A stretch of 40,919 nucleotides of DNA from Alistipes senegalensis (GTDB lineage: Bacteria; Bacteroidota; Bacteroidia; Bacteroidales; Rikenellaceae). The translations under genes and the position numbers were made by a program. The DNA lies in contig JAMPDE010000001.1 of the NCBI GenBank assembly GCA_023665825.1, positions 957,726 through 998,644 on the forward strand. Reading direction: 5' to 3'. The notes under the pieces were generated by a model. The model was not told the origin of the DNA. It made no database searches and saw nothing but the letters and a program-made list of their open reading frames with translations. Every line of letters begins with the position of its first letter. Position 1 is the stretch's first letter. Below, in pieces: positions 1 through 24,708 of this stretch.

Positions 1-152
1 ACCCTTCCATGAGTCTATTAATAAAATGGGTCTGTGCGCTTTCAATCTTTCCGAAGCCAGCCAACCTCCCGTAGCCCTTAAAACCCTGTTCTTAACAGGG
101 CAGTGCGCTTCCGACCATCTGAAACCCGACGACCGCACGTAGCCCTAATAAA
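1..152 (-). repeat. Two adjacent copies (A, B) of a dispersed intergenic repeat
   Basis: Read on the minus strand, copy B (about 152-101) starts TTTTTATTAGGGCTACG and runs to GGAAGCGCACTG. Copy A (about 100-20) follows directly. Copy A opens with the hairpin CCCTGTT-AAG-AACAGGG (84-100), then TTTTAAGGGCTACGG, then GGCTTCGGAAAGATT and GAAAGCGCAC. The same order of elements recurs at 11250, 21320 and 24640, and partly at 23648, 38836 and 40790. No coding potential is visible. The left edge of the window may cut the element. Function unknown. Confidence 0.75.
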
Positions 153-167
153 AAAGTAGCGAAAAAA

Positions 168-9502: not shown

Positions 9503-9523
9503 TTCCGCCTCCATTCCCGCTCT

Positions 9524-9574
9524 CGCAGGACTGCGCCGCGCGCTTCGGTGTGGCGGGCAGTCCTGCGTTTTTTT
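9524..9574 (+). terminator. Intrinsic terminator of the S46 peptidase gene
   Basis: CGCAGGACTGC (9524-9534) pairs perfectly with GCAGTCCTGCG (9557-9567) and is followed by seven T. The 22-nt loop is GC rich. Confidence 0.9.
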
Positions 9575-9700
9575 CGGGCGGTTCGGCCGACTGGGTGGGC
9601 GCAGCGGTTCGGTTCCGGTGGCTCGGTTCCCGGCAGCTCGGATGGCTTGCTTGTGAATTCAGCTATTCGGTAAAAAAAATCGGAATTTTCGACCAAAATG

Positions 9701-9732
9701 TTTGGCCGCTGCGGTTTGTTTGTTTACCTTTG
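9701..9732 (+). promoter_or_regulatory. Promoter of the OmpP1/FadL-like gene
   Basis: TTTG (9701-9704), 20 nt, then TACCTTTG (9725-9732): a near-ideal Bacteroidetes -33/-7 promoter. The leader to the ATG at 9780 is about 40 nt and contains GAATAAAAAATT. Confidence 0.82.
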
Positions 9733-9779
9733 CGGCGATTTCGTTTCGGACGGAACGCGATCGAATAAAAAATTATGCT

Positions 9780-11249: not shown

Positions 11250-11330
11250 CCCATTTAAGAAAAGGGCTTTAAGTGCTACGGATGCGCTTGCGGTTTCAGT
11301 CGGTCGGAAGCGCGCCGCCCGTTTAAGAAA
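11250..11330 (+). repeat. Dispersed repeat, copy C, abutting the OmpP1 stop codon
   Basis: It begins at the base after the TAA with the stem CCCATTT-AAG-AAAAGGG (one A-A mismatch), then CTTTAAGTGCTACGGATGC, then GGTCGGAAGCGCGCCGCCC, and ends with a second TTTAAGAAA. Element order matches copies A, D and H. Confidence 0.75.
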
Positions 11331-11337
11331 AAAATCG

Positions 11338-11373
11338 AAAGAGGTTATCGCATTTGCGATAACCTCTTTTTCG
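11338..11373. terminator. Bidirectional terminator between OmpP1 gene and tRNA-Val
   Basis: AAAGAGGTTATCGC and GCGATAACCTCTTT pair perfectly around ATTT, with an A run before and TTTT after, so it can serve both convergent units. Confidence 0.88.
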
Positions 11374-11376
11374 TTG

Positions 11377-11451
11377 TGGGAACATGCGGATTTGAACCGC
11401 AGACCTCCTGCTTGTCGAGCAGGCGCTCTAAACCAACTGAGCTATGCTCCC
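11377..11451 (-). tRNA. tRNA-Val (GAC) with C at position 33
   Basis: Minus strand: acceptor GGGAGCA/TGTTCCC, D stem GCTC/GAGC, anticodon stem CCTGC/GCAGG, loop TCGACAA, T stem TGCGG/CCGCA, discriminator A, 75 nt, no encoded CCA. Anticodon GAC. Its neighbour tRNA-Val(TAC) has the normal loop CTTACAA with U33; here position 33 is C, which is unusual because U33 makes the U-turn. Confidence 0.93.
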
Positions 11452-11461
11452 TCGAAACAAT

Positions 11462-11489
11462 AAAAAAACCATCCGAACGGACGGGTGGT
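11462..11489 (-). terminator. Terminator-like hairpin between the two tRNA-Val genes
   Basis: On the minus strand ACCACCCG-TCCGTT-CGGATGGT is followed by TTTTTTT. One G-U pair forms on this strand. It lies just after tRNA-Val(TAC) and before tRNA-Val(GAC), so the second tRNA would depend on read-through or on its own promoter, which I do not see. Confidence 0.7.
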
Positions 11490-11499
11490 CGCTTTGTCG

Positions 11500-11574
11500 T
11501 GGGAGCTGAGGGATTCGAACCCCCGACCCTCTGCTTGTAAGGCAGACGCTCTGAACCAGCTGAGCTAAGCTCCC
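11500..11574 (-). tRNA. tRNA-Val (TAC)
   Basis: Minus strand: acceptor GGGAGCT/AGCTCCC, D stem GCTC/GAGC, anticodon stem TCTGC/GCAGA with loop CTTACAA (anticodon TAC), T stem GGGGG/CCCTC, discriminator A, 75 nt. No encoded CCA. Confidence 0.97.
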
Positions 11575-11601
11575 AAAATTTCAAAAAATGGCTCGGGACA
11601 A

Positions 11602-11632
11602 CAAAGGTAACTCTTTTTTCGCAAACTCCAAA
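11602..11632 (-). promoter_or_regulatory. Promoter of the tRNA-Val pair
   Basis: On the minus strand TTTG (complement of 11629-11632), 19 nt, then TACCTTTG (complement of 11602-11609), ending 27 nt before tRNA-Val(TAC). Confidence 0.85.
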
Positions 11633-11745
11633 TTTTTTTGTCCTCCCTGTTTTTCGGGTCTCTCCTTTTTCGGATTTTCCTACTCTCTTCGAGCCGGCCC
11701 TTTTTCTCGGGCTTCCCCCTTTTCCGGGCCCCTCTCGGGATTCGT
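11615..11745. other. Strand-biased polypyrimidine tract between tRNA genes
   Basis: The plus strand is almost all C and T over roughly 130 nt, with repeated CCTTTTTC and CCCTTTTTC blocks; the minus strand is correspondingly purine rich. No gene fits here. It includes the -33 element of the tRNA-Val promoter. Such tracts can form triplex or unusual duplex DNA; whether that matters here is unknown. Confidence 0.5.
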
Positions 11746-11780
11746 CGTTTGCGTTACGCTCCGTAACCCTCGCGCATCTG

Positions 11781-11854
11781 CGCCTGAACAAGGACTTGAA
11801 CCTAGGACCCCATGATTAACAGTCATGTGCTCTAACCGACTGAGCTATTCAGGC
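11781..11854 (-). tRNA. tRNA-Asn (GTT)
   Basis: Minus strand: acceptor GCCTGAA/TTCAGGC, D stem GCTC/GAGC, anticodon stem CATGA/TCATG with loop CTGTTAA (anticodon GTT), discriminator G, 74 nt, no encoded CCA. Confidence 0.97.
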
Positions 11855-11886
11855 ATTCGATCCGGCTCGGTGGCCGTTTCGGAATG

Positions 11887-11917
11887 CAAATATAAGGCAA
11901 AAATTTTTTCCTGCAAA
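11887..11917 (-). promoter_or_regulatory. Promoter of tRNA-Asn
   Basis: On the minus strand TTTG (complement of 11914-11917), 19 nt, then TATATTTG (complement of 11887-11894), ending 32 nt before the tRNA. Confidence 0.82.
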
Positions 11918-11924
11918 ATTTTTC

Positions 11925-12106
11925 GCAAAAAAATAAACGAAAGCAATACCCTGCCGGGCAGGATAATCATAAAGGACGGATGTAAAGGCCGTCGGTGAGG
12001 ATTATCCGAAAGGAGCGGGCTGCCGGGTTGTCCTATTGCCTGCGAAAAGTGTCAGATTTTCTAACGCGGACGAGCGGAAGCGGCTCACGAAAGGGCGGGG
12101 TATTGC
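11925..12106 (-). ncRNA. Possible structured RNA between the hydrolase and tRNA-Asn genes
   Basis: GCAATACCC (11943-11951) and GGGTATTGC (12098-12106) form a perfect 9-bp closing stem over 164 nt. Inside lie GGATAATC/GATTATCC (11961/12000), GACGG/CCGTC (11975/11989) and CCTGC/GCAGG (11950/11958). On the minus strand the closing stem is followed by TTTCGTTTATTTTTTT, like a terminator. No TAnnTTTG promoter with a good -33 was found; GATATTTG near 12183-12190 is the nearest. It matches no RNA family I know. The remainder of the gap (12107-12335) shows only a 13-nt direct repeat, GGCCGACGTTTTC, at 12260 and 12281. Confidence 0.3.
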
Positions 12107-12335
12107 ACGCGGATCGGGGATGAATCGGGGTTCGTTCTCTCTGTTTTTTCGGTCGTTGCGATATGGTTTCTTATCGGATGTTGCAAATATCGGGCCGAAA
12201 CGATGATTCGTTCCGCTCGATTTTTTTATTTTTCATTCAAATTCGGCGGAAGCATTCCCGGCCGACGTTTTCATGGGGCGGGCCGACGTTTTCGCGGGGT
12301 AAGTTCGCCGTCGGGCGCTGTCCCTCGCGCACGGT

Positions 12336-13142
12336 TTATCCGGCGTTTGCCAGCACGAATCGCAGCAGGGCTTCGGCCGTCGCTTCGGGTTCTTCGACGA
12401 ATCCCATGTGCCCCGAATGTTCCAGCCATGCGACCTGCGCTTCGGGGTGTTCGGCGACCATCCGTTCGGCGACCTCCGCCGGAATGTATCCGTCCTTGCG
12501 GCCCAGCACGAACAGCACGGGAACCGGCGTCGTGCGGAGCAGTTCGTTGCGGTCTTTGCGCGCAATCATGCCGTTGAGGAGTGCCACGATGCCCGCGTCT
12601 TCCGTCACGTAGACCTGCTCGGCCAAATCCGTTATCGCATCGCGCAGGCGGGTGCGGTTCTCTTCGGCGAAGCCTGCCGCTGGAGCGACCCGCGCCAGCA
12701 TCTCCTTGCGGCCGGATTTCACGATTTCGATTTCGCGCCGGCGGTTCTCCTGCTTTTCGGGCGTGTCGGCGTTGGGCGTCGAGCTCAACAGCACCAGCCC
12801 GTCGAGCAGCTCGGGGTACCGTTCGCACAGCGCGAGCGCGACGTACCCGCCCATCGAGTGGCCCACGACCGTGCAACGGCCGATGCCGAGCGCGCGGATG
12901 CCGGCCGCTACCGTGTCGGCGAGAAATTCCATCGTATGGCACTCTCCGTCGACGACCGAGATGCCGTGTCCCGGCAGGTCGACCGTCACGACCCGCACCT
13001 GCTTGCAGAGCAGCGGCACGAAATCGTCCCAGACGAGCAGCGATTCGAGGTAGCCGTGCAGCAGCACAACGCACCGGTCGCCGACCTGCGAATCGCAGAC
13101 GTGCAGGGCGGTGTCGCCCGCCATGATGAATCGTTCGGTCAT
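12336..13142 (-). CDS. Alpha/beta hydrolase
   Basis: The 268-residue cytoplasmic product has the alpha/beta hydrolase fold: oxyanion-loop motif LLHGYLES (about 27-34), DLPGHG (55-60), nucleophile elbow GHSMGG with Ser96, acid Asp217 in LGRKDGYIP, and His245 in HSGHMGF. It resembles small esterases or epoxide hydrolases and MenH-like proteins; no substrate can be assigned. It lies 25 nt after dapF on the same strand, so it is probably co-transcribed with dapF. There is no signal peptide. A 13-nt direct repeat follows the gene at 12260-12293. Confidence 0.9.
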
Positions 13143-13167
13143 TGCGTGCGGGGGTTCGTTGATCGGG

Positions 13168-13959
13168 TTATTCGATTGCGCCGCTGAAAACCCGCCGTGC
13201 GGGCCCCGTCAGCCGGATGCCGTTGTATTGCTGCACGCCGTCGCGGAAGAACCGCACGCGCAGGCGTCCTCCCTGCACGTCGACGTCGAACTGGTGGACG
13301 TCGGGCTGGCGGACGAAATTGGCGATGAGTGCGGCGGCGACGGCTCCCGTGCCGCAGGCGAGCGTCTCGTTTTCGACGCCGCGTTCGTAGGTGCGGATTT
13401 TCAGTTTGCCGTTGGAGCGCACCTCGACGAAATCGACGTTCGTCCCGTGCGGGAAGTGTTCGTCGTCGTAGCGGATGCGCCGTCCGCGTCCGCAGACGTC
13501 GACGGCATCGGCAAAATCGACGAACTCCACATAGTGGGGCACGCCGGTATTGAGCGACCAGCCGTTGCCGACAGTCGTGATTTCCGAGACGGGAATCATG
13601 CCCAGTTCGACCTCGCCCGATGCCCCTTTGACCTGACGCAGCGTTGCTTCGTGCATGCCGTCGGCGGCTTTGAAGCGGCAGGTGTCGTCGCAGAGTTCGA
13701 GATGACGGACGAAGAGCACGAAACAGCGTGCGCCGTTGCCGCACATCTCGCCTTCGGAGCCATCGGCATTGAAATAGCGCATGACGCAGCACCCTTCGTC
13801 GTCGCGTTCCAGCGTCATGAGCCCGTCGGCCCCGATGCCGAAATGGCGGTCGCACAGGCGGGCGATGCCGTGCGCCGTCGGGGTGAACTGCCCCGAACGG
13901 TTGTCGATGAGGATGAAGTCGTTGCCCGCACCCTCGTATTTTGCAAAAGTCGTTGGCAT
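13168..13959 (-). CDS. dapF: Diaminopimelate epimerase
   Basis: The 263-residue enzyme converts LL- to meso-diaminopimelate, the last step before lysine and a precursor of peptidoglycan. It starts [16 protein letters not shown], and both catalytic Cys are present: Cys73 in [10 protein letters not shown] and Cys202 in [13 protein letters not shown]. The ATG at 13959 is chosen because an exact -7 element TATCTTTG ends 8 nt upstream; longer versions would start upstream of the transcript. This also makes the mRNA almost leaderless. It lies downstream of metK, separated by a hairpin, and upstream of the hydrolase. Confidence 0.97.
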
Positions 13960-13967
13960 AGATACCG

Positions 13968-13975
13968 CAAAGATA
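13968..13975 (-). promoter_or_regulatory. -7 element of dapF
   Basis: Minus-strand TATCTTTG is an exact TAnnTTTG match ending 8 nt before the dapF ATG. No TTTG is seen at the -33 position. Confidence 0.6.
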
Positions 13976-13999
13976 CACAATAATTTTGAATCGGTCGAT

Positions 14000-14042
14000 A
14001 GCGCAGCCGCCCTTTCGTGAAGGAAGGACGGCTTATCGCGCT
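14000..14042 (-). terminator. Hairpin overlapping the metK stop codon
   Basis: On the minus strand AGCGC...AGCCGTCCTT pairs with AAGGGCGGCT...GCGCT. The one non-Watson-Crick position is a G-U pair on this strand but A-C on the other, so it fits the metK transcript. No T tract follows, so it may act as a processing or Rho-related site rather than as an intrinsic terminator. Confidence 0.5.
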
Positions 14043-15345
14043 AATGAAAAAATTCGCGGCGGATGCAGTCGACGGCGTCGAGTTTTTCCCAGCCGAAGTA
14101 TTCGATTTCGCGTTCGACTTCGCGGCCGTTTTCCCACAGCCGCACTTTCTCGGTGAACGGGCGGTTGCCGAAGTGGCCGTAGGAGGCCGTTTTCTCGAAA
14201 ATCGGATTTTTCAGCCCGAACCGCCGCACGATGGCCGCCGGACGCAGGTCGAACAGCTTGCCGATGCGGCGGGCGATTTCGCCGTCGGTCATCCCCTCCA
14301 ACGCTGCGGGGCGGGGCGAACCGTAGGTGTCGACGTAGATCGAGAGCGGTTCGGCGATGCCGATGGCATAGGAGAGTTCGACCAGCACCTGTTCGGCGAC
14401 GCCTGCCGCCACGAGGTTCTTGGCGATGTGCCGCGCGGCATAGGCGGCCGAACGGTCGACCTTCGACGAGTCCTTGCCCGAGAAGGCGCCGCCGCCGTGC
14501 GCGCCGCGTCCGCCGTAGGAATCGACGATGATTTTGCGGCCCGTGAGCCCCGTATCGCCGTGCGGGCCCCCGATGACGAATTTGCCCGTCGGGTTGACGT
14601 GCAGGATGTAGTCGTCGCCGATCAGGTCGGCCAGCTGGTCGTTGGCCCGTTGGAGACGCGCCTTGACGCGCGGGATGAGAATCGTCCGCACGTCTTCGCG
14701 GATTTGCTGCTGCATCCGCTGTTCGGCCTCCTTCTCCGTGAGCCCGTCGCCCGGCAGGATGAATTCGTCGTGCTGGGTCGACACGACGATGGTGTGCACC
14801 CGCACGGGGCGGTTCGTCCGTTCGTCGTACTCGATCGTGACCTGCGATTTGGAGTCGGGTCGCAGGTACTGCATGACCTTACCCTCGCGGCGGATGACGG
14901 CCAGCTCTTTGAGAATCACGTGCGACAGGATGAGCGTCGCAGGCATCATTTCGCGCGTTTCGTTGCAGGCGTATCCGAACATGATGCCCTGATCGCCGGC
15001 TCCCTGCTGCTCTTCGGTTTCGCGCACGACGCCCTGATTGATGTCGGATGACTGACCGTGCAGGGCCGACAGGATGCCGCACGAATTGCAGTCGAACTGG
15101 TACTCGCTCTTGGTGTAGCCGATGCGCCCGATGACGCGGCGGGCCACCTCCTGCACGTCGACGGTGGCGGTGGAGCGCACCTCGCCGGCTATGACCACCA
15201 GACCGGTGGTGCAAAGCGTTTCGCAGGCGACTTTGGCGTCGGGGTCATGGCGAAGGTATTCGTCGAGGACGGCATCGGAAATCTGGTCCGATACTTTGTC
15301 GGGGTGTCCTTCGGACACCGATTCGGAAGTGAACAAAAATCCCAT
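14041..15345 (-). CDS. metK: S-adenosylmethionine synthetase
   Basis: The 434-residue enzyme makes SAM from methionine and ATP. Signatures are [18 protein letters not shown] near the N-terminus, [16 protein letters not shown] in the middle and the P-loop-like [22 protein letters not shown]. It is longer than the E. coli enzyme by several tens of residues, as is common in Bacteroidetes. The ATG at 15345 is preceded by AATTTAATAAACGA. The transcript should start near 15625, giving a leader of about 280 nt that contains a SAM-II riboswitch, so the enzyme's own product is expected to control the gene. Confidence 0.98.
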
Positions 15346-15522
15346 TCGTTTATTAAATTTTTCAATACTTTTTCAGTACGGTCGTAATGTTTTTTTTCTT
15401 TTTTCCGTGCGGAAATGCGCGCGCGTTTCCGGCGGCAGTCCGCGACGGTCGTGTGGATGCGATGACCGTGCAATCCGTCCGGCGGGATTTTGCAATCCCG
15501 AAGCATCGGATCCGTACCAGTG

Positions 15523-15575
15523 AATAAAAAATCGGCTGAAAGAGTAGGAGAATACTGTTTTAGCGATTTTTTATT
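15523..15575 (-). promoter_or_regulatory. Alternative pairing that competes with the SAM-II pseudoknot
   Basis: On the minus strand AATAAAAAATCG (complement of 15564-15575) lies in the 3' part of the aptamer. It is perfectly complementary to CGATTTTTTATT (complement of 15523-15534), 29 nt further on; two more pairs form after a bulge. Because the upstream arm supplies the pseudoknot strand, the two structures exclude each other. This looks like the expression platform, but which state is ON cannot be told. Further downstream the leader has a hairpin CGGGATT-GCAA-AATCCCG. Confidence 0.65.
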
Positions 15576-15608
15576 GTGGTTTGCAATCAGTCAAATGTTT
15601 CCACATTT
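15554..15608 (-). promoter_or_regulatory. SAM-II riboswitch aptamer in the metK leader
   Basis: Minus-strand RNA shows the SAM-II order of elements. P1 is TGTGG/CCACA (15601-15605 with 15575-15579). The loop after P1 carries ATTTG-ACTG followed by the conserved ATTGCAA. The 3' tail reads AATAAAAAAT-C-GCTAAAA-CAGT. The H-type pseudoknot forms by ATTT/AAAT and ACTG/CAGT. The blocks ATTGCAA and GCTAAAA and their positions match the SAM-II (metA motif) family. Placement in front of metK makes ligand identity very plausible. A short GC hairpin (CCCGC/GCGGG) precedes the aptamer. Confidence 0.88.
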
Positions 15609-15629
15609 CCCCGCTCACGGGCGGGACTG

Positions 15630-15637
15630 CAAAGATA
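15630..15637 (-). promoter_or_regulatory. -7 element of metK
   Basis: Minus-strand TATCTTTG matches TAnnTTTG; the predicted start, near 15625, lies about 17 nt before the SAM-II aptamer. The -33 element is weak. Confidence 0.65.
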
Positions 15638-15715
15638 ACGTTATTCTCTGAAAAAGAAAAATTTTCTTCGAGGTCGTTTTATTTCTCTCCGAATGCCGAT
15701 TTCGGGCGGCGGGGT

Positions 15716-15746
15716 TTTGCCGATTTGGAACAAAATTGTACTTTTG
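15716..15746 (+). promoter_or_regulatory. Promoter of the RND efflux operon
   Basis: TTTG (15716-15719), 19 nt, then TACTTTTG (15739-15746), about 50 nt before the ATG at 15799. It diverges from the metK promoter, with about 100 bp between the two -7 elements. I see no clear operator palindrome in between. Confidence 0.8.
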
Positions 15747-15798
15747 TGCTGAACGGGTGCGCCCGTTCGTTAATACGCCAAATAATAACTAATACAAT

Positions 15799-16863
15799 AT
15801 GAACAGGCAATCCAGTATCGGTATCCTTATGTTGGGATTGACGCTCGCCGCCGGATGTTCCGGCCGGCAGGAGCAGGCCAAACCGCTGCCGACGGTGCAG
15901 ACCGGCACGGTCGAGCCTTACGGCGAATCGCGGAAACTCGAATTTCCGGGCCGCGTCAAGGCGGCGCAGGAGGTCAACTTGGCCTTCAAGCTGGCCGGGA
16001 CGCTTCAACGCTTCCTCGTGCCCGAAGGAACGCACGTGCGGCAGGGCGACGTGCTCGTGCAGCTCGACCCGCGCGACTATCGGCTGCAATTGGAGGCCGT
16101 CGAGGCCGAATACCGCCGCGTCAAGGCACAAGCCGAGCGCGTCATGGCGCTCTATGCCGACAGTGCGGCGACGGCCGACGATTACGACAAGGCGCGCTAC
16201 GGCCTGCGCCAGATGGAGGCGAAGTACCGCAACTGCAAGAACCAGCTGGCCGACACCGAGTTGCGCGCGCCGTTCGACGGCTTCGTGCAGCGTCACCTGC
16301 TCGATCGCGGGACGGTCGTCGGGGCGGGCATGCCCGTCGTGAGCGTCATTTCGGGCGAGGCTCCCGAAGTCGAAATCAACATTCCGGGCGCGGAGTACGT
16401 CCGCCGCAACGAATTCGCCGCGTTCGAGGGGTCGTTCGACTTCTGGCCGGGACGCCGGATTCCGCTCACGCTGTTGAGCATCAGCCCCAAAGCCAATGCC
16501 AACCAGCTCTACACCGTGCGGCTGGGCATCGCTGCGGGCACCGACCCGATGCCCTCGCCCGGCATGAACACGATGGTCGAGGTGGCGTTCCGTTCGTCGG
16601 ACGACAGCCGCAGCTCGATTCCTGCTACGGCGCTTTTCGCCGAGCGGCAGGAGAGCTTCGTGTGGGTCATCGGCGAGGACAGCGTCGTCGTGCGGCGGCC
16701 CGTGCGGGTGTTGAGCCTGCACTCCGACGGCTCGGCGGTCGTCGGCCCCGAACTCGAAGCGGGTGAACGCATCGTCACGGCAGGCGTGCACAGCCTGCAC
16801 GAAGGTCAGAAAGTCGCGCCGATGGCCGAACCGTCGGAAACCAACGTGGGAGGATTGCTATGA
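15799..16863 (+). CDS. RND efflux periplasmic adaptor (membrane fusion lipoprotein)
   Basis: The 354-residue product is a HlyD/AcrA-type adaptor that bridges an inner-membrane RND pump and a TolC channel. The lipoprotein signal MNRQSSIGILMLGLTLAAGC places lipidated Cys20 in a membrane, as in AcrA. A barrel/lipoyl region (about 50-90, GRVKAAQEVNLAFKLAGTL and VPEGTHVRQGDVLVQLDPRDY) is split by a helical hairpin (about 90-160) and resumes at ELRAPFDGFVQRHLLDRGTVV. A beta-barrel and membrane-proximal domain follow. Its TGA overlaps the ATG of the pump gene (ATGA), so translation is coupled. Confidence 0.95.
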   Translation: MNRQSSIGILMLGLTLAAGCSGRQEQAKPLPTVQTGTVEPYGESRKLEFPGRVKAAQEVNLAFKLAGTLQRFLVPEGTHVRQGDVLVQLDPRDYRLQLEAVEAEYRRVKAQAERVMALYADSAATADDYDKARYGLRQMEAKYRNCKNQLADTELRAPFDGFVQRHLLDRGTVVGAGMPVVSVISGEAPEVEINIPGAEYVRRNEFAAFEGSFDFWPGRRIPLTLLSISPKANANQLYTVRLGIAAGTDPMPSPGMNTMVEVAFRSSDDSRSSIPATALFAERQESFVWVIGEDSVVVRRPVRVLSLHSDGSAVVGPELEAGERIVTAGVHSLHEGQKVAPMAEPSETNVGGLL

Positions 16864-19800
16864 CGGACTTGGGTAATTGGGCGTTCGCCAATAAAAAACT
16901 CGTCTATTTTCTGCTGGCCGTGCTGACCGTCGGGGGCTTGCTGTCGATTTACGACATGAGCAAGCTCGAAGACCCCGAAATCAAGGTCAAGCAGGCGATG
17001 GTCGTGGCCGTCTATCCGGGCGCGTCGGCGCACGAGGTCGAAATGGAGGTCGCCGACCCGCTCGAAAAGAGCATCCGCGCGATCGGCGAGCTGGACAACG
17101 TGTCGAGCTGGTCGTACAACGACTTGGCCATTCTGCAAGTGGAGTTGAAAACCACCGTGCCCGATGCCGACATCGAGCAGTGCTGGGACTTGCTGCGCCG
17201 CAAGGTGGGCGATACGTCGCTGCCGGCAGGGGCGTCGGTCGCCGTGCGCGACGACTTCGGGCTGGTCTACGGCATGCTCTACGCCTTGACGGGCGACGGC
17301 CTTTCCGAACGGCAGTTGCAGGACTACGCCGAGCTGGTCAAGCGCGAAATCGGCGACCTCGACGGCGTGGCCCGCGTGGAGATTTACGGCGAGCGGCCCG
17401 ACTGCATCGACATCGCGATTCTGCCCGAAAAGATGGCGACGCTCGGCATTTCGCCCGCCGAAGTGCTGGCCACGCTCAAAGGGCAGAACGACACCTATTA
17501 CGCGGGTTATTACGACAACGGCCCCAGCCGCATCCGCGTGACGGTGACGGACAAGTTCCGCACCGTCGAGCAGATCAAGAGCATGGTCATACAGGGCCAC
17601 GAGGACGACCAGCTGCGGCTGGGCGACATCGCGACGGTCGAACACGGCTATGCCGAACCCGTGCGCAACGAGATGCTCTACGACGGACGCCATGCGCTGG
17701 GCATCGCCGTCGCAGCCGCTTCGGGCAGCGACATCGTGAAGGTGGGCGGCGAGGTGCGGCGCAAGCTGGCCGAATTGCAGGAAACCCGCTTTCCGGCAGG
17801 CGTCGAGTGCCACAAAATTTTCTACCAGCCCGAACGCGTCACGGACGCCCTGCTGACCTTTTTTATTAATTTGTTGGAGTCCGTAGTAATCGTTGTGGGA
17901 ATCCTGATGCTCACGATGGGCTTCCGCAGCGGCATGATTATCGGCATCAGTCTGGTCATCATCGTCATCGGGTCGTTCCTCGTGCTGGGCATGACCGACG
18001 GCACGATGCAACGCGTTTCGCTGGCGTCGTTCATTCTGGCGATGGGCATGCTGGTCGACAACGCCATCGTCATCGTCGACGGTATTCTGGTCGACCTCCA
18101 AGCGGGCAAACCCCGCCGCGAAGCCCTCACGGCCATCGGCCGCAAGACCGCGATGCCGCTGCTGGGCGCGACGCTGATTGCGATTCTGGCCTTTTTCCCC
18201 GTCTACCTGTCGCCCGATACGGCGGGCGTCTACGTGCGCGACCTGTTCATCGTGCTGGCCGTGTCGCTGCTGTTGAGCTGGGTGCTTGCGCTCGTCCACG
18301 TGCCGCTGATGGCCGACCACTGGCTGAAACACCGCGCCGACGGCCAAGCGGGCGAAAACCGCATGGAACAATTTTTCAAACGGTGTTTGCGTGCGACGCT
18401 CGGATTCTCGCTGCGGCACCGCATCGCCTCCGTCGTGCTGGCCGTCGTGCTGGTCGGGGCGAGCGCGTGGGGCTACGGATACATGCGGCACGGCTTCTTC
18501 CCCGACATGGTCTACGACCAGCTCTACATGGAGTACAAACTGCCCGAAGGCACCAATTCGGGGCGGGTGAAAAGCGACCTCGCGGAAATCGAGGCCTATC
18601 TGAAAACGCGGCCCGAAATCACCCACGTGACGACTTCGACGGGCGGCACGCCGGCGCGCTACAACTTGGTGCGCAGCATCGCCACGCCGTCGCTCTCCTA
18701 CGGCGAACTCATCATCGACTTCACCTCGCCGAAAGCCCTCGAAGAGAATCTCGACGCCATTCAGCGCGAACTGACGGCCCGCTATCCCGACGCCTACGTC
18801 AAGCTGAAACGCTACAACCTGATGTTCAAGAAATACCCGATCGAGGTACTGTTCACGGGGCCCGATCCGGCCGTCCTGCACGAGCTGGCCGACAGCGCGC
18901 GCCGCATCATGGAGGCGACGCCCGAGGTCGAGCTCATCACCACCGACTGGGAGCCGCGCATTCCGGTGCTGTGCATCGACTACGAGCAGTCGGCCGCCCG
19001 CCGCATGGGATTGGGGCGGCAGAACGTCGCGATGTCGATGCTCTCGGCCGCCGGCGGGATTCCGGTGGGAACGTTCTACGAAGGCATCCACCCGAATACG
19101 ATCTACTTGAAGTGCACCGACATGGACGGCCTGCCGCTCGATAATTTGGAGAACGTGCCGGTCTTCTCGACGCTGCCCGCGCTGGCGAACCTCTTCGACG
19201 AGGAGACGCTCGTGCAGCTGCGCACGGGGGTGCTCGACCGCGAATCGCTGGTCGAACGGGCCATGCGCACCGTGCCGCTGAAACAGATCAGTCGCGGGGT
19301 CGAAATCGCATGGGAAGACCCCGTCGTGCCGCGCTACAACGGCCAGCGGGCCCAGCGCGTGATGTGTTCGCCCGTGTCGGGGCTCGAAACCGAAGCGGCC
19401 CGCCGTGCGATCGTCGACCGCATCGAAGCCATTCCGCTGCCGACGGGCTACGGTCTGACGTGGCAGGGCGAAAAGGGCGCGAGCGACCAGACGATGAAGT
19501 ACCTGTTCAAGAACGTTCCGGTCGGCGTCGTGCTGATGATCGCCATTCTGATATTCCTGTTCGGCGATTACCGCAAACCGACCGTCATCCTGTGCGGCGT
19601 CCCGCTGATTGCCGTCGGCGTGGTCGGCGCGATGCTCCTCACGGGGCAGACCTTCACCTTCTGCGCCATCGTGGGCGTGCTGGGGCTCGTGGGCATGATG
19701 ATGAAGAACAGCATCGTGCTGATGGACGAAATCGGTGACCGCATGGCGACCGCCGACGACCCCGTCGAAGCCCTGCTCGCCAGCTCCGAAAGCCGCATGC

Positions 19801-19979
19801 GGCCGGTCGTGATGGCCTCGTTGACGACGATTCTCGGCATGATTCCGCTGTTGAGCGACGCGATGTTCGGCTCGATGGCCGCCACGATCATGGGCGGTCT
19901 GCTGTTCAGTACGTTCGCTACGCTGCTGTTCATACCGGTGCTCTATGCCCTGTTTTTCAAAATCCGCGTGAAACGATGA
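16860..19979 (+). CDS. RND family efflux pump, inner-membrane subunit
   Basis: The 1039-residue product is a full-length AcrB-type proton-driven transporter with two sets of transmembrane helices, each preceded by a large periplasmic loop. N-terminal KKLVYFLLAVLTVGGLLSIYD is TM1; TM2-TM6 lie around 335-480 and the second bundle around 870-1035. The helix that normally carries the proton-relay Asp pair reads GMLVDNAIVIVDGI, so the second Asp is Asn. SLASFILAMGM precedes it. The sequence is closer to the efflux pumps with short KLEDPEIKVKQAMV N-termini than to classical AcrB. Substrate unknown. It overlaps the adaptor and the TolC gene by 4 nt each. Confidence 0.95.
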   Translation: MTDLGNWAFANKKLVYFLLAVLTVGGLLSIYDMSKLEDPEIKVKQAMVVAVYPGASAHEVEMEVADPLEKSIRAIGELDNVSSWSYNDLAILQVELKTTVPDADIEQCWDLLRRKVGDTSLPAGASVAVRDDFGLVYGMLYALTGDGLSERQLQDYAELVKREIGDLDGVARVEIYGERPDCIDIAILPEKMATLGISPAEVLATLKGQNDTYYAGYYDNGPSRIRVTVTDKFRTVEQIKSMVIQGHEDDQLRLGDIATVEHGYAEPVRNEMLYDGRHALGIAVAAASGSDIVKVGGEVRRKLAELQETRFPAGVECHKIFYQPERVTDALLTFFINLLESVVIVVGILMLTMGFRSGMIIGISLVIIVIGSFLVLGMTDGTMQRVSLASFILAMGMLVDNAIVIVDGILVDLQAGKPRREALTAIGRKTAMPLLGATLIAILAFFPVYLSPDTAGVYVRDLFIVLAVSLLLSWVLALVHVPLMADHWLKHRADGQAGENRMEQFFKRCLRATLGFSLRHRIASVVLAVVLVGASAWGYGYMRHGFFPDMVYDQLYMEYKLPEGTNSGRVKSDLAEIEAYLKTRPEITHVTTSTGGTPARYNLVRSIATPSLSYGELIIDFTSPKALEENLDAIQRELTARYPDAYVKLKRYNLMFKKYPIEVLFTGPDPAVLHELADSARRIMEATPEVELITTDWEPRIPVLCIDYEQSAARRMGLGRQNVAMSMLSAAGGIPVGTFYEGIHPNTIYLKCTDMDGLPLDNLENVPVFSTLPALANLFDEETLVQLRTGVLDRESLVERAMRTVPLKQISRGVEIAWEDPVVPRYNGQRAQRVMCSPVSGLETEAARRAIVDRIEAIPLPTGYGLTWQGEKGASDQTMKYLFKNVPVGVVLMIAILIFLFGDYRKPTVILCGVPLIAVGVVGAMLLTGQTFTFCAIVGVLGLVGMMMKNSIVLMDEIGDRMATADDPVEALLASSESRMRPVVMASLTTILGMIPLLSDAMFGSMAATIMGGLLFSTFATLLFIPVLYALFFKIRVKR

Positions 19980-21328
19980 CACTTATTAAATTGCGCATAA
20001 TTCTTACGGCGGTCGTATTTCTCGGGACGTTCGTGGTTCCCGCGACCGCACAGACCCCGCTGACGCTCGACCAGTGCGTCGAGCAGGCCAAAGCCAACAA
20101 CCGCCGGCTGGCCGCCGCTGACAAGCAGGTGCAGGCCGCCCGCTACGACCTGCGGAGCATGAAAGCGAACTTCCTGCCGTCGATTTCGGCGGTCGGCATG
20201 GGGCTTTATTCCAATACGAAAGGCGGTCTGAACGTCGCGGGCGGCATGCTGCCGGTCGTGGGGGCCGACATGACGCCGACGGGGCAGTTCGCCGCTTTTC
20301 CGGGCATGAACATCGACTACCGCATCGGGTGGCTCTACGGCGGCGGCGTGCAGCTCGAACAGCCGCTTTACATGGGCGGTAAGGTGCGCACGGGGCTGCG
20401 CATGGCCAAAATCGGCACCGAGCTGGCGGCGCAAAACCGGCGGCTGACCGAGCAGGAGGTCGTGTTGGAGACTTCACGCGCCTATGCCGACGTGGTGCGG
20501 GCCCGCGAACTGCGCAAAGTCGCCGAACGCTATCATGCGCTGCTGACCGAACTGCTGCGCAACGTCGAAAGCGCGCGCAAACACGGCCTGAAACCGCAGA
20601 ACGATGTGCTGCGCGTGCAGGTCAAGCTCAACGAGAGCGAACTCTCCCTGCGCCGGGCTGAAAACGGGCTGCGGCTGGCGACGATGAACCTCGCGCACTT
20701 GACGGGGCACCGGCTGACCGAGCCCCTCGAAATCACGGGCGACTTGCCCGACTATCCGGCTGTCGCGCCCGCCGCCGATTTGGAGGGCCGCCCCGAATTC
20801 CGGCTGCTCGACCGCAAGAGCCAACTGGCGCGCGAGCAGGTGCGGCTGGCCCGCAGCGAGCGGCTGCCGCAAGTCGGGCTGGTGGGCAGCTACGGCTATA
20901 CGCACGGCGTGAAACTGAACGACGATTACCTGCTCGACGGGGCGAGCTACATGGCCGGTGTGCAGGTGTCGATTCCGATTTTCCACTTCGGGGGCCGGTC
21001 GGCCAAGATGCGGGCCGCCCGCGCGAAGTACGAGCAGGCGCAGTTGGAGCAGGCCGACGGCAGCGAACGGATGCAACTGGAACTGACCCGTGCGGCGAAT
21101 AATTTCGACGAATCGGCACTGGAAGTGCGGCTGGCCGAATCTTCGCTGGCGGCGGCCGACGAGAATCTGCGGTTGAGCGGGTTGCAATATCGCAACGGTA
21201 CGGCAACGCTGTCGGATTACCTCGAAGCGCAGGCTTTGTGGCAGCAGGCCTACCAGACCCACGTGCAGGCGCGGGTGGACGGTTATCTCGATTGGCTGGA
21301 ATACAGCAAGGCCGCCGGCCGGCTTTAA
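19976..21328 (+). CDS. TolC family outer membrane efflux protein
   Basis: The 450-residue product forms the outer-membrane and periplasmic tunnel of the tripartite pump. A signal peptide covers about residues 1-24 (ending ATAQ), followed by TPLTLDQCVEQAKANNRRL, the typical OEP start. Two OEP repeats of long amphipathic helices follow (about 30-215 and 245-445), with RYNG-type conservation in the second repeat at LQYRNGTATLSDYLEAQ. The start ATG overlaps the pump stop (ATGA). The stop codon TAA sits at the apex of the repeat-D hairpin, so termination of translation and the 3' structure are physically linked. Confidence 0.95.
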   Translation: MTLIKLRIILTAVVFLGTFVVPATAQTPLTLDQCVEQAKANNRRLAAADKQVQAARYDLRSMKANFLPSISAVGMGLYSNTKGGLNVAGGMLPVVGADMTPTGQFAAFPGMNIDYRIGWLYGGGVQLEQPLYMGGKVRTGLRMAKIGTELAAQNRRLTEQEVVLETSRAYADVVRARELRKVAERYHALLTELLRNVESARKHGLKPQNDVLRVQVKLNESELSLRRAENGLRLATMNLAHLTGHRLTEPLEITGDLPDYPAVAPAADLEGRPEFRLLDRKSQLAREQVRLARSERLPQVGLVGSYGYTHGVKLNDDYLLDGASYMAGVQVSIPIFHFGGRSAKMRAARAKYEQAQLEQADGSERMQLELTRAANNFDESALEVRLAESSLAAADENLRLSGLQYRNGTATLSDYLEAQALWQQAYQTHVQARVDGYLDWLEYSKAAGRL

Positions 21329-21401
21329 GAAAGCCGTTTTAAGCGCTACGGATAGTTGACGGGTTTCGGAAGTTCAGAAAGCGCACTCACCCTCTAATAA
21401 A
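21320..21401 (+). repeat. Dispersed repeat, copy D, overlapping the tolC-like stop codon
   Basis: A perfect hairpin CGGCTTT-AAG-AAAGCCG (21320-21336) contains the TAA of the gene. It is followed by TTTTAAGCGCTACGGATAG, GGGTTTCGGAAGTTCAG and AAAGCGCACTCACCC, and ends with CTAATAAA (21394-21401). The match to copies A and C is clear across the unit. Confidence 0.8.
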
Positions 21402-21438
21402 AGCGGGCCAAAGACTGCGGAGTGCACGACACGCCAGT

Positions 21439-21473
21439 GGCGGGCTTTCGCGGGCGAAGGCTTCGGCCCGCGC
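21439..21473 (-). repeat. GC-rich 35-bp repeat, copy 1
   Basis: Read on the minus strand it starts GCGCGGGCCGAAGCC, continues TTCGCCCGCGAA and ends AGCCCGCC. It matches 40885-40919 on the plus strand with 2 differences in 35. Its ends can pair (GCGGGC/GCCCGC) around an inner CTTCGC/GCGAAG-like core, as in REP elements. Confidence 0.7.
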
Positions 21474-21515
21474 GGCTTGAAGAGCCGCAACAAAAAGCGC
21501 CGATAAAGAATAATG

Positions 21516-21552
21516 AAAAGGCGAGAATCAATTTCAGATTCTCGCCTTTTTT
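21516..21552. terminator. Bidirectional terminator between tolC-like gene and M13 peptidase gene
   Basis: AAAAGGCGAGAATC pairs perfectly with GATTCTCGCCTTTT around AATTTCA and is followed by TT. It serves the plus-strand efflux operon and the facing M13 gene. Confidence 0.88.
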
Positions 21553-21596
21553 AATTGAGGTGCAGGCCGGTCGGAGCCAAGCCCCGACCGAACCGG

Positions 21597-23630
21597 TTAC
21601 CAGATGATGACCCGTTCGGCTTCGGGCAGGAACATCGGGCCCTCGTCGATGCCGAACGCATCGTAGAACGTTTGCAGGTTGCGCAGCGTGGCATCGACGC
21701 GCCACTTGCCGAGCGAGTGCACGTCGAGCTTCGTCAGGCGGGCGATTTCCTCGTCGCGGATGTTCTGGGCCCACAGCGCCGCATAAGCCAGATAGAAACG
21801 CTGCGCGGCCGTGAATCCGTCGATCGGCGCGGGCTCGGTGCCGTTCTGCGCATTTTTCATGGCGGTGTAGGCCACGCGCAGACCGCCCTGATCGGCGATG
21901 TTCTCGCCCAGCGACAACGCGCCGTTGGCGTGGATGGCCGGCTGGCCGTCGCGGGCGGGCAGCACCTCGATCGCATTGAACTGGTCGACCAGCACGGCCG
22001 TCTTCTTCTTGAACGCTGCGGCGTCGGCTTCCGTCCACCAGTTGTTGAGGTTGCCCTGCTTGTCGAAATTGCGGCCCTGATCGTCGAATCCGTGCGTCAT
22101 TTCATGGCCGATGACCACGCCGATAGCCCCGTAGTTCACGGCATCGTCGGCATCGGGGTTGTAGAACGGCGGTTGCAGGATGGCGGCCGGGAAGCAGATT
22201 TCGTTGGTCGTCGGATTGTAGTAGGCGTTGACCATCTGCGGCGGCATGTGCCACTTGGCGCGGTCGACCGGACGTCCCAGTTCGGCGATGTTGTCGGCCG
22301 TGTACCACTTGTTGGCTTCGACGACGTTTTCCCAATAGCTTTTCTGCGGGTCGATCGTGAGCGTCGTGTACTCTTTCCACTTGTCGGGGTAGCCGATCTT
22401 CACCGTGAAGGCGGCCAGCTTCTCCTGCGCTTTGACTTTGGTTTCGTCGGACATCCAGTCGAGCGCGGCGACGTGCTGCGACAGGGCGGTTTGGAGATTC
22501 TCGACGATGCCGAGCATCCGTTCCTTGTCTTTCTCGGGGAAATACTTCGCCACGTACATTTCGCCGACGGCCTCCGACAGCACGCTGTTGGGTACGGCCA
22601 TCGCGCGTTTCCAGCGGGGTTTCTGCTCCTGACGGCCCGACATCGTGCGTCCGTAGAACTCGAACGAGGCGTCGCCGAACGCATCGCTCAAATACGAAGC
22701 CGCCGCGTTGATGTATCCGGCCGCCATGTAGTAGCGCAGGTCGTCGAGCGATGCCGTTTTCAGAATCCGGTTGGAGTTGTCGAGTGCGGACGGCGTGGTG
22801 ACGATGACGGTCTTGAAGTCGCCGATGCCCATTTTGTCGCAGTAGGCGGCCCAGTCGACGGCATCATACCGTTTCACGAAGTCCGTTTTGGCGATTTTGT
22901 TGTAGAGTTTCGGGATGTCGCGCATCGCCTCGCTCGACCAGTTCTTGCGGGCCAGCGCCGTTTCGATGCGCATCACGCCGTCGACCGCTTGCGTGATTTC
23001 GGTTTCGGGCAGACCGGCGAGTTCCCACAGTTTCGCGAGGTACTCCTTGTAGGCCGTCCGTTTCGATTCGTGTTCCGCGTCGAGGTAGTAGTCGCGGTCG
23101 CCCATCATCAGGTCGGCTTGCGAAGCGTAGAGCGCATTGGCGTCGCTGTTCATCATGTCGGCCTCGACCCCGATGCCGAAGAACGGGTTGGATACCGAGC
23201 TGTGCAGCTCGGCGATGAGCGCGGTCAGCTCGGCACGGTCGGCGACGGCGAGAATCCGCTCGACCATCGGCCGGATAGGTGCGGCTCCCTCGCTGTTCAG
23301 ACGGGCCGAATCGAGCCCCATTTTATAGAGGTCGGCGATTTTCTGCTCGACGCTGCCCGCTTCGGCTTTGGTGCGGGTCATTTCAGCGAACAGGTCGTTG
23401 ATGCGGATTTCGTTGTTCTCGCGCAGGATGTCGAACGACCCGTAACGCGAAAATTCGGGTTTCAGCGGATTACGCTGCTGCCACCCGCCGGTGGCGTATT
23501 CATAGAAATCGACGCTCGGTGCGACCGTCGGGTCGAGGTTGGCCAAGTCGATGGCCGGAACCTTCGGGGTGTTGTGTTGACAAGCTGCCATACAAACCGT
23601 TAATGCGAATAGTAAATGGATTCGTTTCAT
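21597..23630 (-). CDS. M13 family zinc metallopeptidase (neprilysin/PepO-like)
   Basis: The 677-residue product begins with a lipoprotein signal MKRIHLLFALTVCMAAC-QHN, so it should be anchored on the periplasmic or outer face. Zinc-site residues are HEMTH at 509-513 and Glu576 in GENIADQGG. Upstream, NAYYNPTTNEICFPAAILQPPF is the M13 substrate-binding motif. The N-terminal half (about 30-400) is the M13_N domain that caps the active site and limits substrates to peptides. Full length for bacterial PepO-type enzymes. Its 5' leader holds part of repeat E and AATAAAAATTC before the ATG. Likely role: peptide trimming together with the S46 enzyme (inference). Confidence 0.96.
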   Translation of the reverse strand: MKRIHLLFALTVCMAACQHNTPKVPAIDLANLDPTVAPSVDFYEYATGGWQQRNPLKPEFSRYGSFDILRENNEIRINDLFAEMTRTKAEAGSVEQKIADLYKMGLDSARLNSEGAAPIRPMVERILAVADRAELTALIAELHSSVSNPFFGIGVEADMMNSDANALYASQADLMMGDRDYYLDAEHESKRTAYKEYLAKLWELAGLPETEITQAVDGVMRIETALARKNWSSEAMRDIPKLYNKIAKTDFVKRYDAVDWAAYCDKMGIGDFKTVIVTTPSALDNSNRILKTASLDDLRYYMAAGYINAAASYLSDAFGDASFEFYGRTMSGRQEQKPRWKRAMAVPNSVLSEAVGEMYVAKYFPEKDKERMLGIVENLQTALSQHVAALDWMSDETKVKAQEKLAAFTVKIGYPDKWKEYTTLTIDPQKSYWENVVEANKWYTADNIAELGRPVDRAKWHMPPQMVNAYYNPTTNEICFPAAILQPPFYNPDADDAVNYGAIGVVIGHEMTHGFDDQGRNFDKQGNLNNWWTEADAAAFKKKTAVLVDQFNAIEVLPARDGQPAIHANGALSLGENIADQGGLRVAYTAMKNAQNGTEPAPIDGFTAAQRFYLAYAALWAQNIRDEEIARLTKLDVHSLGKWRVDATLRNLQTFYDAFGIDEGPMFLPEAERVIIW

Positions 23631-23647
23631 GTGGATTGGGTTGAATT

Positions 23648-23690
23648 TTTATTAGCGTTACGGAAGGTTTTGCGATTGCGGATAGCCTAT
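23648..23690 (+). repeat. Dispersed repeat, partial copy E
   Basis: TTTATTAGCGTTACGGAAGG resembles the start of copies F and G, followed by a diverged GCGATTGCGGATAGCC. On the minus strand it lies in the leader of the M13 gene. Confidence 0.5.
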
Positions 23691-23695
23691 TTGTT

Positions 23696-23731
23696 CAATG
23701 GCACTTTTTGACTAAACAAAAAGTGCCATTG
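23696..23731. terminator. 15-bp perfect hairpin downstream of rpoD
   Basis: CAATGGCACTTTTTG and CAAAAAGTGCCATTG pair perfectly around a 6-nt loop, 5 nt after the rpoD stop codon. No U run follows on the minus strand (AACAAATAGG), so termination is likely but not of the textbook kind. Confidence 0.7.
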
Positions 23732-23736
23732 AAAAT

Positions 23737-24597
23737 TTAGCCCAAATAGGATTTCAGCAGCTTCGACCGCGAGGAGTGGCGCAGGCGGCGGATGGCTTTC
23801 TCCTTGATCTGACGCACGCGCTCGCGGGTCAGGTCGAATTTCTCGCCGATTTCCTCCAACGTCATCTCCGAGCATCCGATGCCGAAGAAATACTTGATGA
23901 TGTCGCGTTCGCGTTCTGTCAGCGTCTCCAACGCGCGGTCGACCTCCGTCGAGAGCGATTCGTTGATGAGCCCGCGATCGGCGTTGGGCGAGTCGGGGTT
24001 CACCAGCACGTCGAGCAGCGAGTTGTCCTCGCCGTCGGCGAACGGCGCGTCCACCGAAACGTGACGCCCGGCCACACGCAGCGTGTCCGTCACCTTGTCG
24101 CGCGGGAGCGACAGCTCGTTGGCCAGTTCGTCGGGCGACGGCGTGCGCTCGTGCTCCTGCTCGAAGCGGGCGAACGCCTTGTTGATTTTATTCAGCGAGC
24201 CCACTTGGTTGAGCGGCAGGCGCACGATGCGCGACTGCTCGGCCAGCGCCTGCAAAATCGACTGGCGGATCCACCACACGGCATAGGAAATGAACTTGAA
24301 ACCGCGCGTTTCGTCGAACTTTTCCGCAGCTTTAATCAGTCCCAGATTGCCCTCGTTGATAAGGTCGGGCAGGCTCAATCCCTGATTCTGGTACTGCTTG
24401 GCCACCGAGACCACGAAACGCAGGTTGGCCTTCGTGAGCTTCTCCAACGCCTCTTGGTCGCCTTTCTTGATTCGCTGGGCGAGTTCCACCTCCTCCTCGA
24501 CCGTGATGAGCTCCTCCTTGCCGATTTCCTGCAAGTACTTGTCCAGCGAGGCGCTTTCGCGGTTGGTGATGGATTTCGTGATTTTTAACTGACGCAT
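23737..24597 (-). CDS. rpoD: Primary sigma factor RpoD/SigA
   Basis: The 286-residue product directs RNA polymerase to housekeeping promoters. It starts [21 protein letters not shown] with region 1.2 ([19 protein letters not shown]), then region 2 ([48 protein letters not shown]), region 3 and region 4 ([15 protein letters not shown] and [19 protein letters not shown]). Region 1.1 is absent, as is normal for Bacteroidetes. The TTTG-N19/20-TAnnTTTG promoters in this window are presumably its targets. The leader has AAAATTAATAAGCGT before the ATG. It lies 111 nt after htrA on the same strand. Confidence 0.97.
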
Positions 24598-24639
24598 ACG
24601 CTTATTAATTTTGTTTCTTCTTTCCGTGTTTCCCTGTCG

Positions 24640-24708
24640 GGGTGGCGCAGGCCACCGTCCGATGTTCGACGACCGTCCGCCGCGCTTAAATCGGCGTTCT
24701 TAACGCCG
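24640..24708 (-). repeat. Dispersed repeat, copy H, abutting the htrA stop codon
   Basis: Minus strand: directly after the TAA comes the perfect hairpin CGGCGTT-AAG-AACGCCG, then ATTTAAGCGCGGCGGACGG and a diverged TCGTC...GCGCCACC tail. Hairpin loop and position match copies A, C and D although the stem sequence differs. Confidence 0.65.

Follow-up and report, generated by a model that had tools for sequence, protein, structure and literature searches.

Hairpins at stop codons in Alistipes as part of a probable interspersed palindromic repeat

Miniature inverted-repeat transposable elements (MITEs), including those of Porphyromonas, and the pneumococcal BOX and RUP elements are non-coding, modular and dispersed, and some of them bear hairpins. 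In the attC sites of integrons, structure outweighs the sequence of the stem, and arrays run at a spacing of approximately 60–70 nt. Here we describe a repeat of Alistipes senegalensis, recognized through four hairpins in a 40,919-nt stretch of the genome (the window; bases 957,726–998,644 of contig C11, in a 2.27-Mb assembly of 29 contigs that is 88% complete). The hairpins probably form the left part of an interspersed palindromic repeat of approximately 72 nt. The repeat would be a non-autonomous mobile family in Alistipes that resembles MITEs and repetitive extragenic palindromic (REP) sequences.

REPs are reported to lie close to the 3′ ends of genes and to donate TAG stop codons (PMC3733652). 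PMC12306157 cites earlier work in which ribosomes stall at E. coli REPs located no more than 15 nt from a stop codon, and the REP-associated tyrosine transposases (RAYTs) of Bacteroidetes, subclass 2.6, have atypical structures (PMC6006769). PMC8040213 lists palindromic candidate RNAs of human microbiomes, and Alistipes appears in PMC5771137 only for contig numbers. A literature search of limited open-access scope found no report of such repeats in Alistipes. To the extent searched, the family has no name and appears to be new, the PMC8040213 candidates standing outside the comparison.

Anatomy, stem structure and distribution of the repeat

An earlier note on the window had described four hairpins (copies A, C, D and H), capped by AAG and, in C, D and H, placed on or beside stop codons, as suggestive of a structured 3′-end RNA module spread by copying. 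Read directly, all four are present at the positions, on the strands and with the stems described, including the triloop and the single mismatch (A/A) in the stem of copy C. Each continues with (N)TTTAAGNGC, followed by TACGG in A, C and D and not in H. Hairpins C and H begin one base past a TAA (11247–11249 and 24711–24709, respectively), and the TAA that ends the gene at D (21326–21328) lies inside the hairpin. Copy A is not located at a stop codon, and the first called gene 5′ of it (388–1629) runs on the opposite strand. A fifth unit, at 98–160 on the minus strand, was missing from the earlier list.

When at most one mismatch was allowed, TTTAAGNGCTACGG matched the source genome 60 times, compared with 8 times for a reversed control. 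Exact copies numbered 33, of which 30 were read with their flanks and three got no locus. With near copies from the same stretches added, 34 of 36 copies were kept in an alignment (A2), and covariance model R1 was built from it. R1 gave 141 matches in the source genome at E ≤ 0.1 and 132 at E ≤ 1e-3, with E-values down to 2e-20; these counts are lower bounds from the 150 of 1485 candidates that were scored. The 132 copies bear out the idea of dispersal by copying.

The unit of approximately 72 nt consists of a hairpin, a T-run (TTTTAAG), NGCTACGG, a variable stretch and GGTTTCCGACGGTCGGAAGCGCACTGACC. The hairpin has a 7-bp stem of varying sequence and a fixed TT-AAG-AA apex, and the conserved core, NGCTACGG...GGAAGCGCACTGACC, lies downstream of TTTTAAG. 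A script classed 74 of the 132 copies as carrying the hairpin (class I) and 58 as lacking it (class II), with some label errors: about six of the class II units have some hairpin (C11:1172185, C11:683005 and C22:198953 among them), and C22:218863 is wrongly labelled class I. Class II units open with TTTTTATTAG and continue into the same core. In 61 class I and 38 class II anchored units, positional conservation begins at the hairpin or the T-run and fades past GACC. Units are arranged singly, as direct tandems of two or three units approximately 63–73 nt apart, or as inverted pairs; inverted and tandem arrays are also found in a relative with a single-contig genome, G180.

The T-run was considered as a pre-existing insertion target of the hairpin-less form, and this was rejected. 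It is absent from three orthologs in G066, an element-poor relative with a fourfold-site identity of 0.56, and therefore more likely belongs to the element than to the target. One gene end of a sister species (C11 1007324) carries TTTTATT with no model-detectable element.

Covariation of the paired bases is strong. In A2, 96.6% of the hairpin cells are paired, two-sided changes occur at six of the seven pairs, and the covariation score was reached in none of 500 shuffles, which supports the structured character proposed in the earlier note. Sliding the partner by 1–3 columns reduced pairing to 45–54% (both stems together). The corresponding values for copies from relatives, 98.4% (A3, 73 copies) and 98.8% (A4, 84 copies), are biased towards the model structure, to which these two alignments were fitted. 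The 73 distinct hairpins with at least 5/7 Watson-Crick pairs include 29 distinct perfect 7-nt stems and comprise 467 Watson-Crick cells, 17 G-T, 10 A-C and 17 others. Selection on RNA only should tolerate G-U far above A-C; therefore, 17 versus 10 does not single out the RNA strand. A second stem (GNGCT/AGCGC) also fits, but shows zero two-sided changes in the source genome. In relatives it is 84–86% paired, with two-sided changes at three of four pairs in A3 and one of four in A4.

The median hairpin energy is −7.85 kcal/mol, and at least four T residues lie within 6 nt 3′ of the stem in 49 of 74 hairpins. Single-strand folding of whole units improves only slightly on shuffles, with RNA z values between +0.6 and −2.2 for five copies. 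The frequency of the TAAG apex among perfect 7-bp hairpins was 51/284 in stretches of the source genome, which were picked around elements, versus 0/70 in 301 kb of G066. Hairpins with this apex, mostly followed by TTTT and lacking the core, were also seen as single or spaced repeats in three further genomes of the genus (G012, G034 and G007, at loci L113, L118 and L065, respectively). The hairpin may be older than the core.

Across the genus, R1 matched 18 of 180 genomes at E ≤ 1e-5, the source genome included, and at E ≤ 1e-3 it matched none of 24 genomes from other families of the order; cross-genome counts are again lower bounds, few candidates being scored per genome. A second model built from the copies of relatives (R2) gave 59, 48, 93, 100, 14 and 4 matches at E ≤ 1e-3 in six of ten chosen genomes and 0 in the other four. 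The earlier note had proposed covariance-model searches of this and related genomes, and these yielded many further copies, covariation and non-random placement at stop codons. Searched against Rfam at gathering scores, the window gave only tRNA and SAM-II, and eight loci gave nothing. With the limit relaxed to E = 1, the lone match in seven loci was ncS011 (E = 0.16; 20.5 bits versus a cut-off of 48), a sub-threshold match at L027 1661–1742 that overlaps one unit by approximately 20 nt.

Placement at gene ends and comparison with relatives

By the gene calls used here, which come from a simple script and not a trained caller, 82 intergenic regions flanked by two known neighbors (51 tandem, 19 convergent and 12 divergent) hold 120 of the 132 copies; the count leaves aside 12 copies at stretch edges or without two flanking genes. 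Among the 97 outermost units, 58 have a same-strand upstream gene, and for 39 the nearest upstream gene is on the opposite strand. Forty-three of the 58 start within −25 to +6 nt of the stop codon, compared with a mean of 11.7 and a maximum of 22 in 2000 random placements; in the source genome, the link to stop codons is strong. Class I units show the exact offsets 0, −9 or −23 in 24 cases, versus 0.69 expected: at 0 the hairpin lies just past the stop, at −9 the TAA of the apex is the stop, and at −23 the stop is the TAA within TTTTAAG. Ten class II units have an offset of −4, versus 0.14 expected, with the stop being the TAG or TAA that ends the TTTTATTAG stretch. Offsets −9, −23 and −4 follow from landing just ahead of an old stop in a fitting frame; 0 needs exact adjacency.

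At gene starts, 10 of the 39 opposite-strand outermost units, all of them class II, lie within 12 nt of the called start of the gene. In such class II units (e.g., G000:C13:3845–3921 and C22:474678–474746), the reverse complement of the T-run (CTAATAAAAA) forms the A-rich leader of the gene.

Gene ends were compared with those of G066, in which R1 found no copy in 301 kb (E ≤ 1) and three weak ones in a genome-wide scan. In eight of nine compared ends, the element of the source genome starts at the G066 stop or a few codons from it; in the ninth, the elements lie more than 300 nt downstream. At the eight ends, the stop is at the same codon in four (two with the same last residues, NSIR-stop and VE-stop), the protein of the source genome is longer in two (VVGK-stop becomes VVGKDIY-stop, and the other gains one residue), and it is two residues shorter in two.

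The sister species G193 is closer, with a nucleotide identity of 0.90 and a fourfold-site identity of 0.79 over 13,702 sites, and it has 63 R1 matches at E ≤ 0.01 in 240 kb. Of 67 comparable gene ends, 12 are occupied in both species, 7 in the source genome only, 5 in G193 only and 43 in neither. Occupancy in G193 was found at 12 of 19 ends that are occupied in the source genome versus 5 of 48 that are not (Fisher P = 3e-5), with base rates inflated by the choice of stretches, largely around elements, in both species. Here, "only" means that R1 found none in the other species: two of the seven ends occupied in the source genome only (C11 1220475 and C11 1027366) align to a related hairpin-less unit in G193.

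The copies at shared ends are little more alike than copies drawn from different ends. Mean identity of the 12 paired copies was 0.752 versus 0.732 for non-orthologous ones (permutation P = 0.06); 12 element-free flanks gave 0.682 versus 0.545 when mismatched. Behind one 100% identical protein, the source genome reads TAA-CCCCGTTTAAGAAACGGG versus TAG-CCGGCTTAAAAAGCCGG in G193, and at another end TAG-CCCCGTT... stands against TAA-CGGCGTT.... At site D of the window, the source genome has CGGCTTTAAGAAAGCCGTTTTAAGCGC and G193 has CAGCTTTAATTAGCGC, which is hairpin-less. The pair at C22 657306 appears inherited, and two others may be as well (0.88, 0.85 and 0.81). The gene-end site tends to be shared with G193, and the copy mostly does not look shared; from the alignments, replacement or repeated insertion would best explain shared sites with dissimilar copies.

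For the window's own genes, the protease gene next to copy H has a match in 38 of 45 genus relatives searched. Gene ends were printed for 29 of these, and by eye no unit copy lies behind the visible protease stops, the script having chosen another frame in several. No ortholog of the OEP protein ended by copy D was found at E ≤ 1e-60 in 40 genus relatives.

Mobile repeat, RNA element and other explanations

The copy number, the two forms, the mix of orientations, the presence or absence of units at orthologous gene ends and the differences between species at the same site point to a mobile repeat. An enzyme that senses the folded hairpin and not the stem sequence would move or overwrite the copies at the DNA level. 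Survival of copies would be best at the extreme end of a gene, since the element there follows or replaces the stop codon (with the TAA of the apex, the TAA within TTTTAAG or the TAG within TTTTATTAG) without harm to the protein. A hairpin adjoining the stop codon in mRNA could plausibly affect termination, 3′-end stability or translation as a side effect, by analogy with E. coli REPs.

Several observations weigh against a mobile repeat. The link to stop codons is weaker elsewhere: units lie within −23 to +7 in 7 of 33 cases in the G079 stretches, 4 of 41 in G081 and 1 of 10 in G180. No mobilizing enzyme was identified in a genome-wide search that covered Y1 transposases and no other transposase family. 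Shared occupancy is as compatible with inherited copies as with hotspots, and rapid change of non-coding sequence is a possible cause of the low orthologous identity (n = 12 pairs). No clean target duplication was seen by eye in nine G066 and 20 G193 comparisons, in which the flanks are too diverged. An offset of exactly 0 is found beside all three stop codons, TAA, TAG and TGA, which is hard to attribute to an insertion motif and could reflect selection for a role of the element at the stop.

The strongest competing explanation, which we regard as possible but doubtful, is that the unit is a functional 3′-untranslated region (UTR) RNA element, with the hairpin and T-run acting as a compact terminator or 3′-end stabilizer kept for the upstream gene. 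The hairpin is followed by TTTT in the sense of the gene, its pairing is strongly conserved in all three alignments, units lie on the same strand as the gene at stop codons, and occupancy of gene ends is common to the sister species. Strong terminators are found behind 6 of 46 element-bearing ends versus 17 of 60 element-free ends, raw counts that are only suggestive. The same stem is weak, however, by its median energy, and a scan of 9500–27000 that lists 23 terminator-like sites, a number equal to that in shuffles and no higher, includes none of the hairpins C, D and H; strong terminator-like stems lie downstream of C and D. An element kept for the upstream gene also fits poorly with the 58 of 132 copies classed as hairpin-less, with the opposite orientation of the nearest upstream gene at 39 of 97 outermost units, the tandem arrays of two or three units and a G-U count that is not clearly above A-C. 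A simple terminator is disfavored by the weak stem and by statistics that are no more than suggestive. The terminator case is weak and an RNA role unproven. The two explanations may be compatible, as a mobile repeat that survives at gene ends with mild effects on mRNA. Of the earlier note's "structured 3′-end RNA module spread by copying", the structure, the copying and the link to stop codons stand, and action as RNA is only a possibility; the hairpin is real, and the unit is larger than the hairpin, a repeat of approximately 72 nt in mosaic arrays. The observation is confirmed and its interpretation partly supported.

A more specific form of the mobile-repeat explanation is speculative and rather improbable: a non-RAYT mobilizing activity might recognize the hairpin shape and apex (TTAAGAA), rather than the stem sequence, and repeatedly insert or overwrite units exactly at stop codons. 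Gene ends would then be conserved docking sites, and the docked copies, in both stem arms, would differ between species.

The repeat is unlikely to be a classical REP/REPIN family that depends for its movement on a RAYT (TnpA_REP, a Y1 transposase), even though copy number, extragenic palindromes, arrays, closeness to 3′ ends and stop donation are all reported REP traits (PMC3733652). Y1_Tnp (PF01797) was found in neither the source genome (88% complete) nor eight relatives, two of them 98–99% and six 77–86% complete, while 5 of 14 control genomes were positive; this absence rules against RAYT-driven movement. The foot of the hairpin has no constant GTAG or CGTC tag, and the unit of approximately 72 nt compares with 20–40 bp. 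The core does contain CTAC, but this overlaps the putative second stem, and relatives have TGCG, GACG or GAAG in its place. Beside the G180 arrays, four of ten translated frames have a Pfam match (M16 peptidase, rRNA dimethylase, MeaB and adenylosuccinate synthetase), none of them to a transposase, and six have no match.

Chance or base composition can be set aside: the motif is short and carries little information, and a window of 60% G+C offers many possible stems for G+C-rich hairpins by stop codons, but E-values reach 2e-20 over 72 nt, and the pattern control, the shuffles and slides, the placement null and the TAAG-apex comparison with G066 all argue otherwise.

Alistipes is a common gut genus. 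The probable mobile repeat lies on the stop codons of many unrelated genes, in some cases with a changed C-terminus, and its copies seem to turn over at fixed gene ends. If it is true that a new enzyme moves the repeat by hairpin shape, the mechanism would differ from that of RAYT/REP mobile elements. If active in mRNA, the repeat would place a hairpin beside the terminating ribosome in dozens of cases. Such repeats can also cause errors in gene-end annotation.

The window and its likeness to known systems

Table 1. Repeat units, adjoining genes and terminator-like stems in the window
Feature	Position	Strand	Basis
Copy A hairpin CCCTGTTAAGAACAGGG	84..100	-	read directly
Copy A whole unit (hairpin and core)	29..101	-	model R1, 81.8 bits (G000:C11:957754-957826)
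Hairpin-less unit (TTTTTTATTAGGGCTACG...), tandem with copy A	98..160	-	model R1, 44.9 bits (957823-957885)
Gene ending before copy C: outer membrane transport protein family (Toluene_X/FadL, PF03349)	9780..11249	+	
Copy C hairpin CCCATTTAAGAAAAGGG, one mismatch, right after TAA of gene 9780-11249	11250..11266	+	
Copy C whole unit	11249..11320	+	model R1, 75.9 bits (968974-969045)
Strong stem and T tract 3′ of copy C, terminator-like on both strands	11338..11369	.	
Gene ended by copy D: outer membrane efflux protein (OEP, PF02321)	19976..21328	+	
Copy D hairpin CGGCTTTAAGAAAGCCG; apex TAA (21326-21328) is stop of gene 19976-21328	21320..21336	+	
Copy D whole unit	21319..21391	+	model R1, 77 bits (979044-979116)
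Strong stem and T tract 3′ of copy D, between convergent genes, terminator-like on both strands	21516..21550	.	
Copy H hairpin CGGCGTTAAGAACGCCG, right after TAA (24711-24709) of gene 24709-26211	24692..24708	-	
Copy H whole unit, GCGGCGG-core subfamily	24639..24709	-	model R1, 49.1 bits (982364-982434)
Gene ending before copy H: trypsin-like protease with PDZ domains (DegP/HtrA type)	24709..26211	-	

The intergenic regions examined are mosaics of several repeat families. Other palindromic modules, such as GCGGGNCGAAG...GGCGGGCCTCCGC.GGCGGAGGCTTCGGCCCGCGCGACGCAAAGCGTCGC and TGCCGCGTCAGCGGCACC...CGGACTAAAAGCGTCCGGCGGAG, are mixed in at 21396–21490 of the window and in many element-bearing intergenic regions. 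Another repeat, in which CTCGCCCCCAGCCGCGCGGCAAACCCGAGC precedes a GGCGGCGAGNG...GA.GTTG stretch, occurs in both species, at approximately 26390–26460 of the window and at a G193 gene end (C11_1007324). Two assembly gaps (runs of N; window 1–66 and G000:C11:439726–439786) have near-identical edges beside a copy of the repeat, which suggests a longer collapsed repeat behind them. A search of the genome with the gap-edge sequence (window 1–66) gave, in addition to the window itself, one good copy (97%) and one weak copy, and no larger element was recovered. The window also holds a SAM-II riboswitch (Rfam RF01726, 65.6 bits) at 15550–15610 on the minus strand.

The Alistipes repeat shares with intrinsic (rho-independent) terminators a gene-sense stem with TTTT after it at the ends of genes; it differs in its fixed apex, weak stem and conserved downstream core of approximately 50 nt, in its hairpin-less copies and in the copies that face opposite-strand genes. 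With integron attC sites it has in common the precedence of structure over stem sequence and the array spacing of approximately 60–70 nt. The conserved attC boxes are not among its invariant columns, however, and its copies are scattered over gene ends of either strand.

The repeat is non-coding, modular and dispersed, with a hairpin in some copies, as in MITEs, BOX and RUP. In contrast to MITEs, it showed no clear terminal inverted repeats or target duplications in the comparisons made here, and no parent insertion sequence was identified; as for MITE-type ends, TTTTTATTAG forms the left end in class II, and CTTAATAA stands on the right directly after just 14 copies. The resemblance to REPs, bacterial interspersed mosaic elements (BIMEs) and REPINs lies in a high-copy, extragenic, palindromic repeat that forms mosaic arrays of alternating orientation near 3′ ends. 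It differs from these families in lacking a detected RAYT and a terminal GTAG/CGTC tag, and it is set apart by a unit of approximately 72 nt, a free stem sequence beneath a fixed TTAAGAA apex and a hairpin-less form with the same core.

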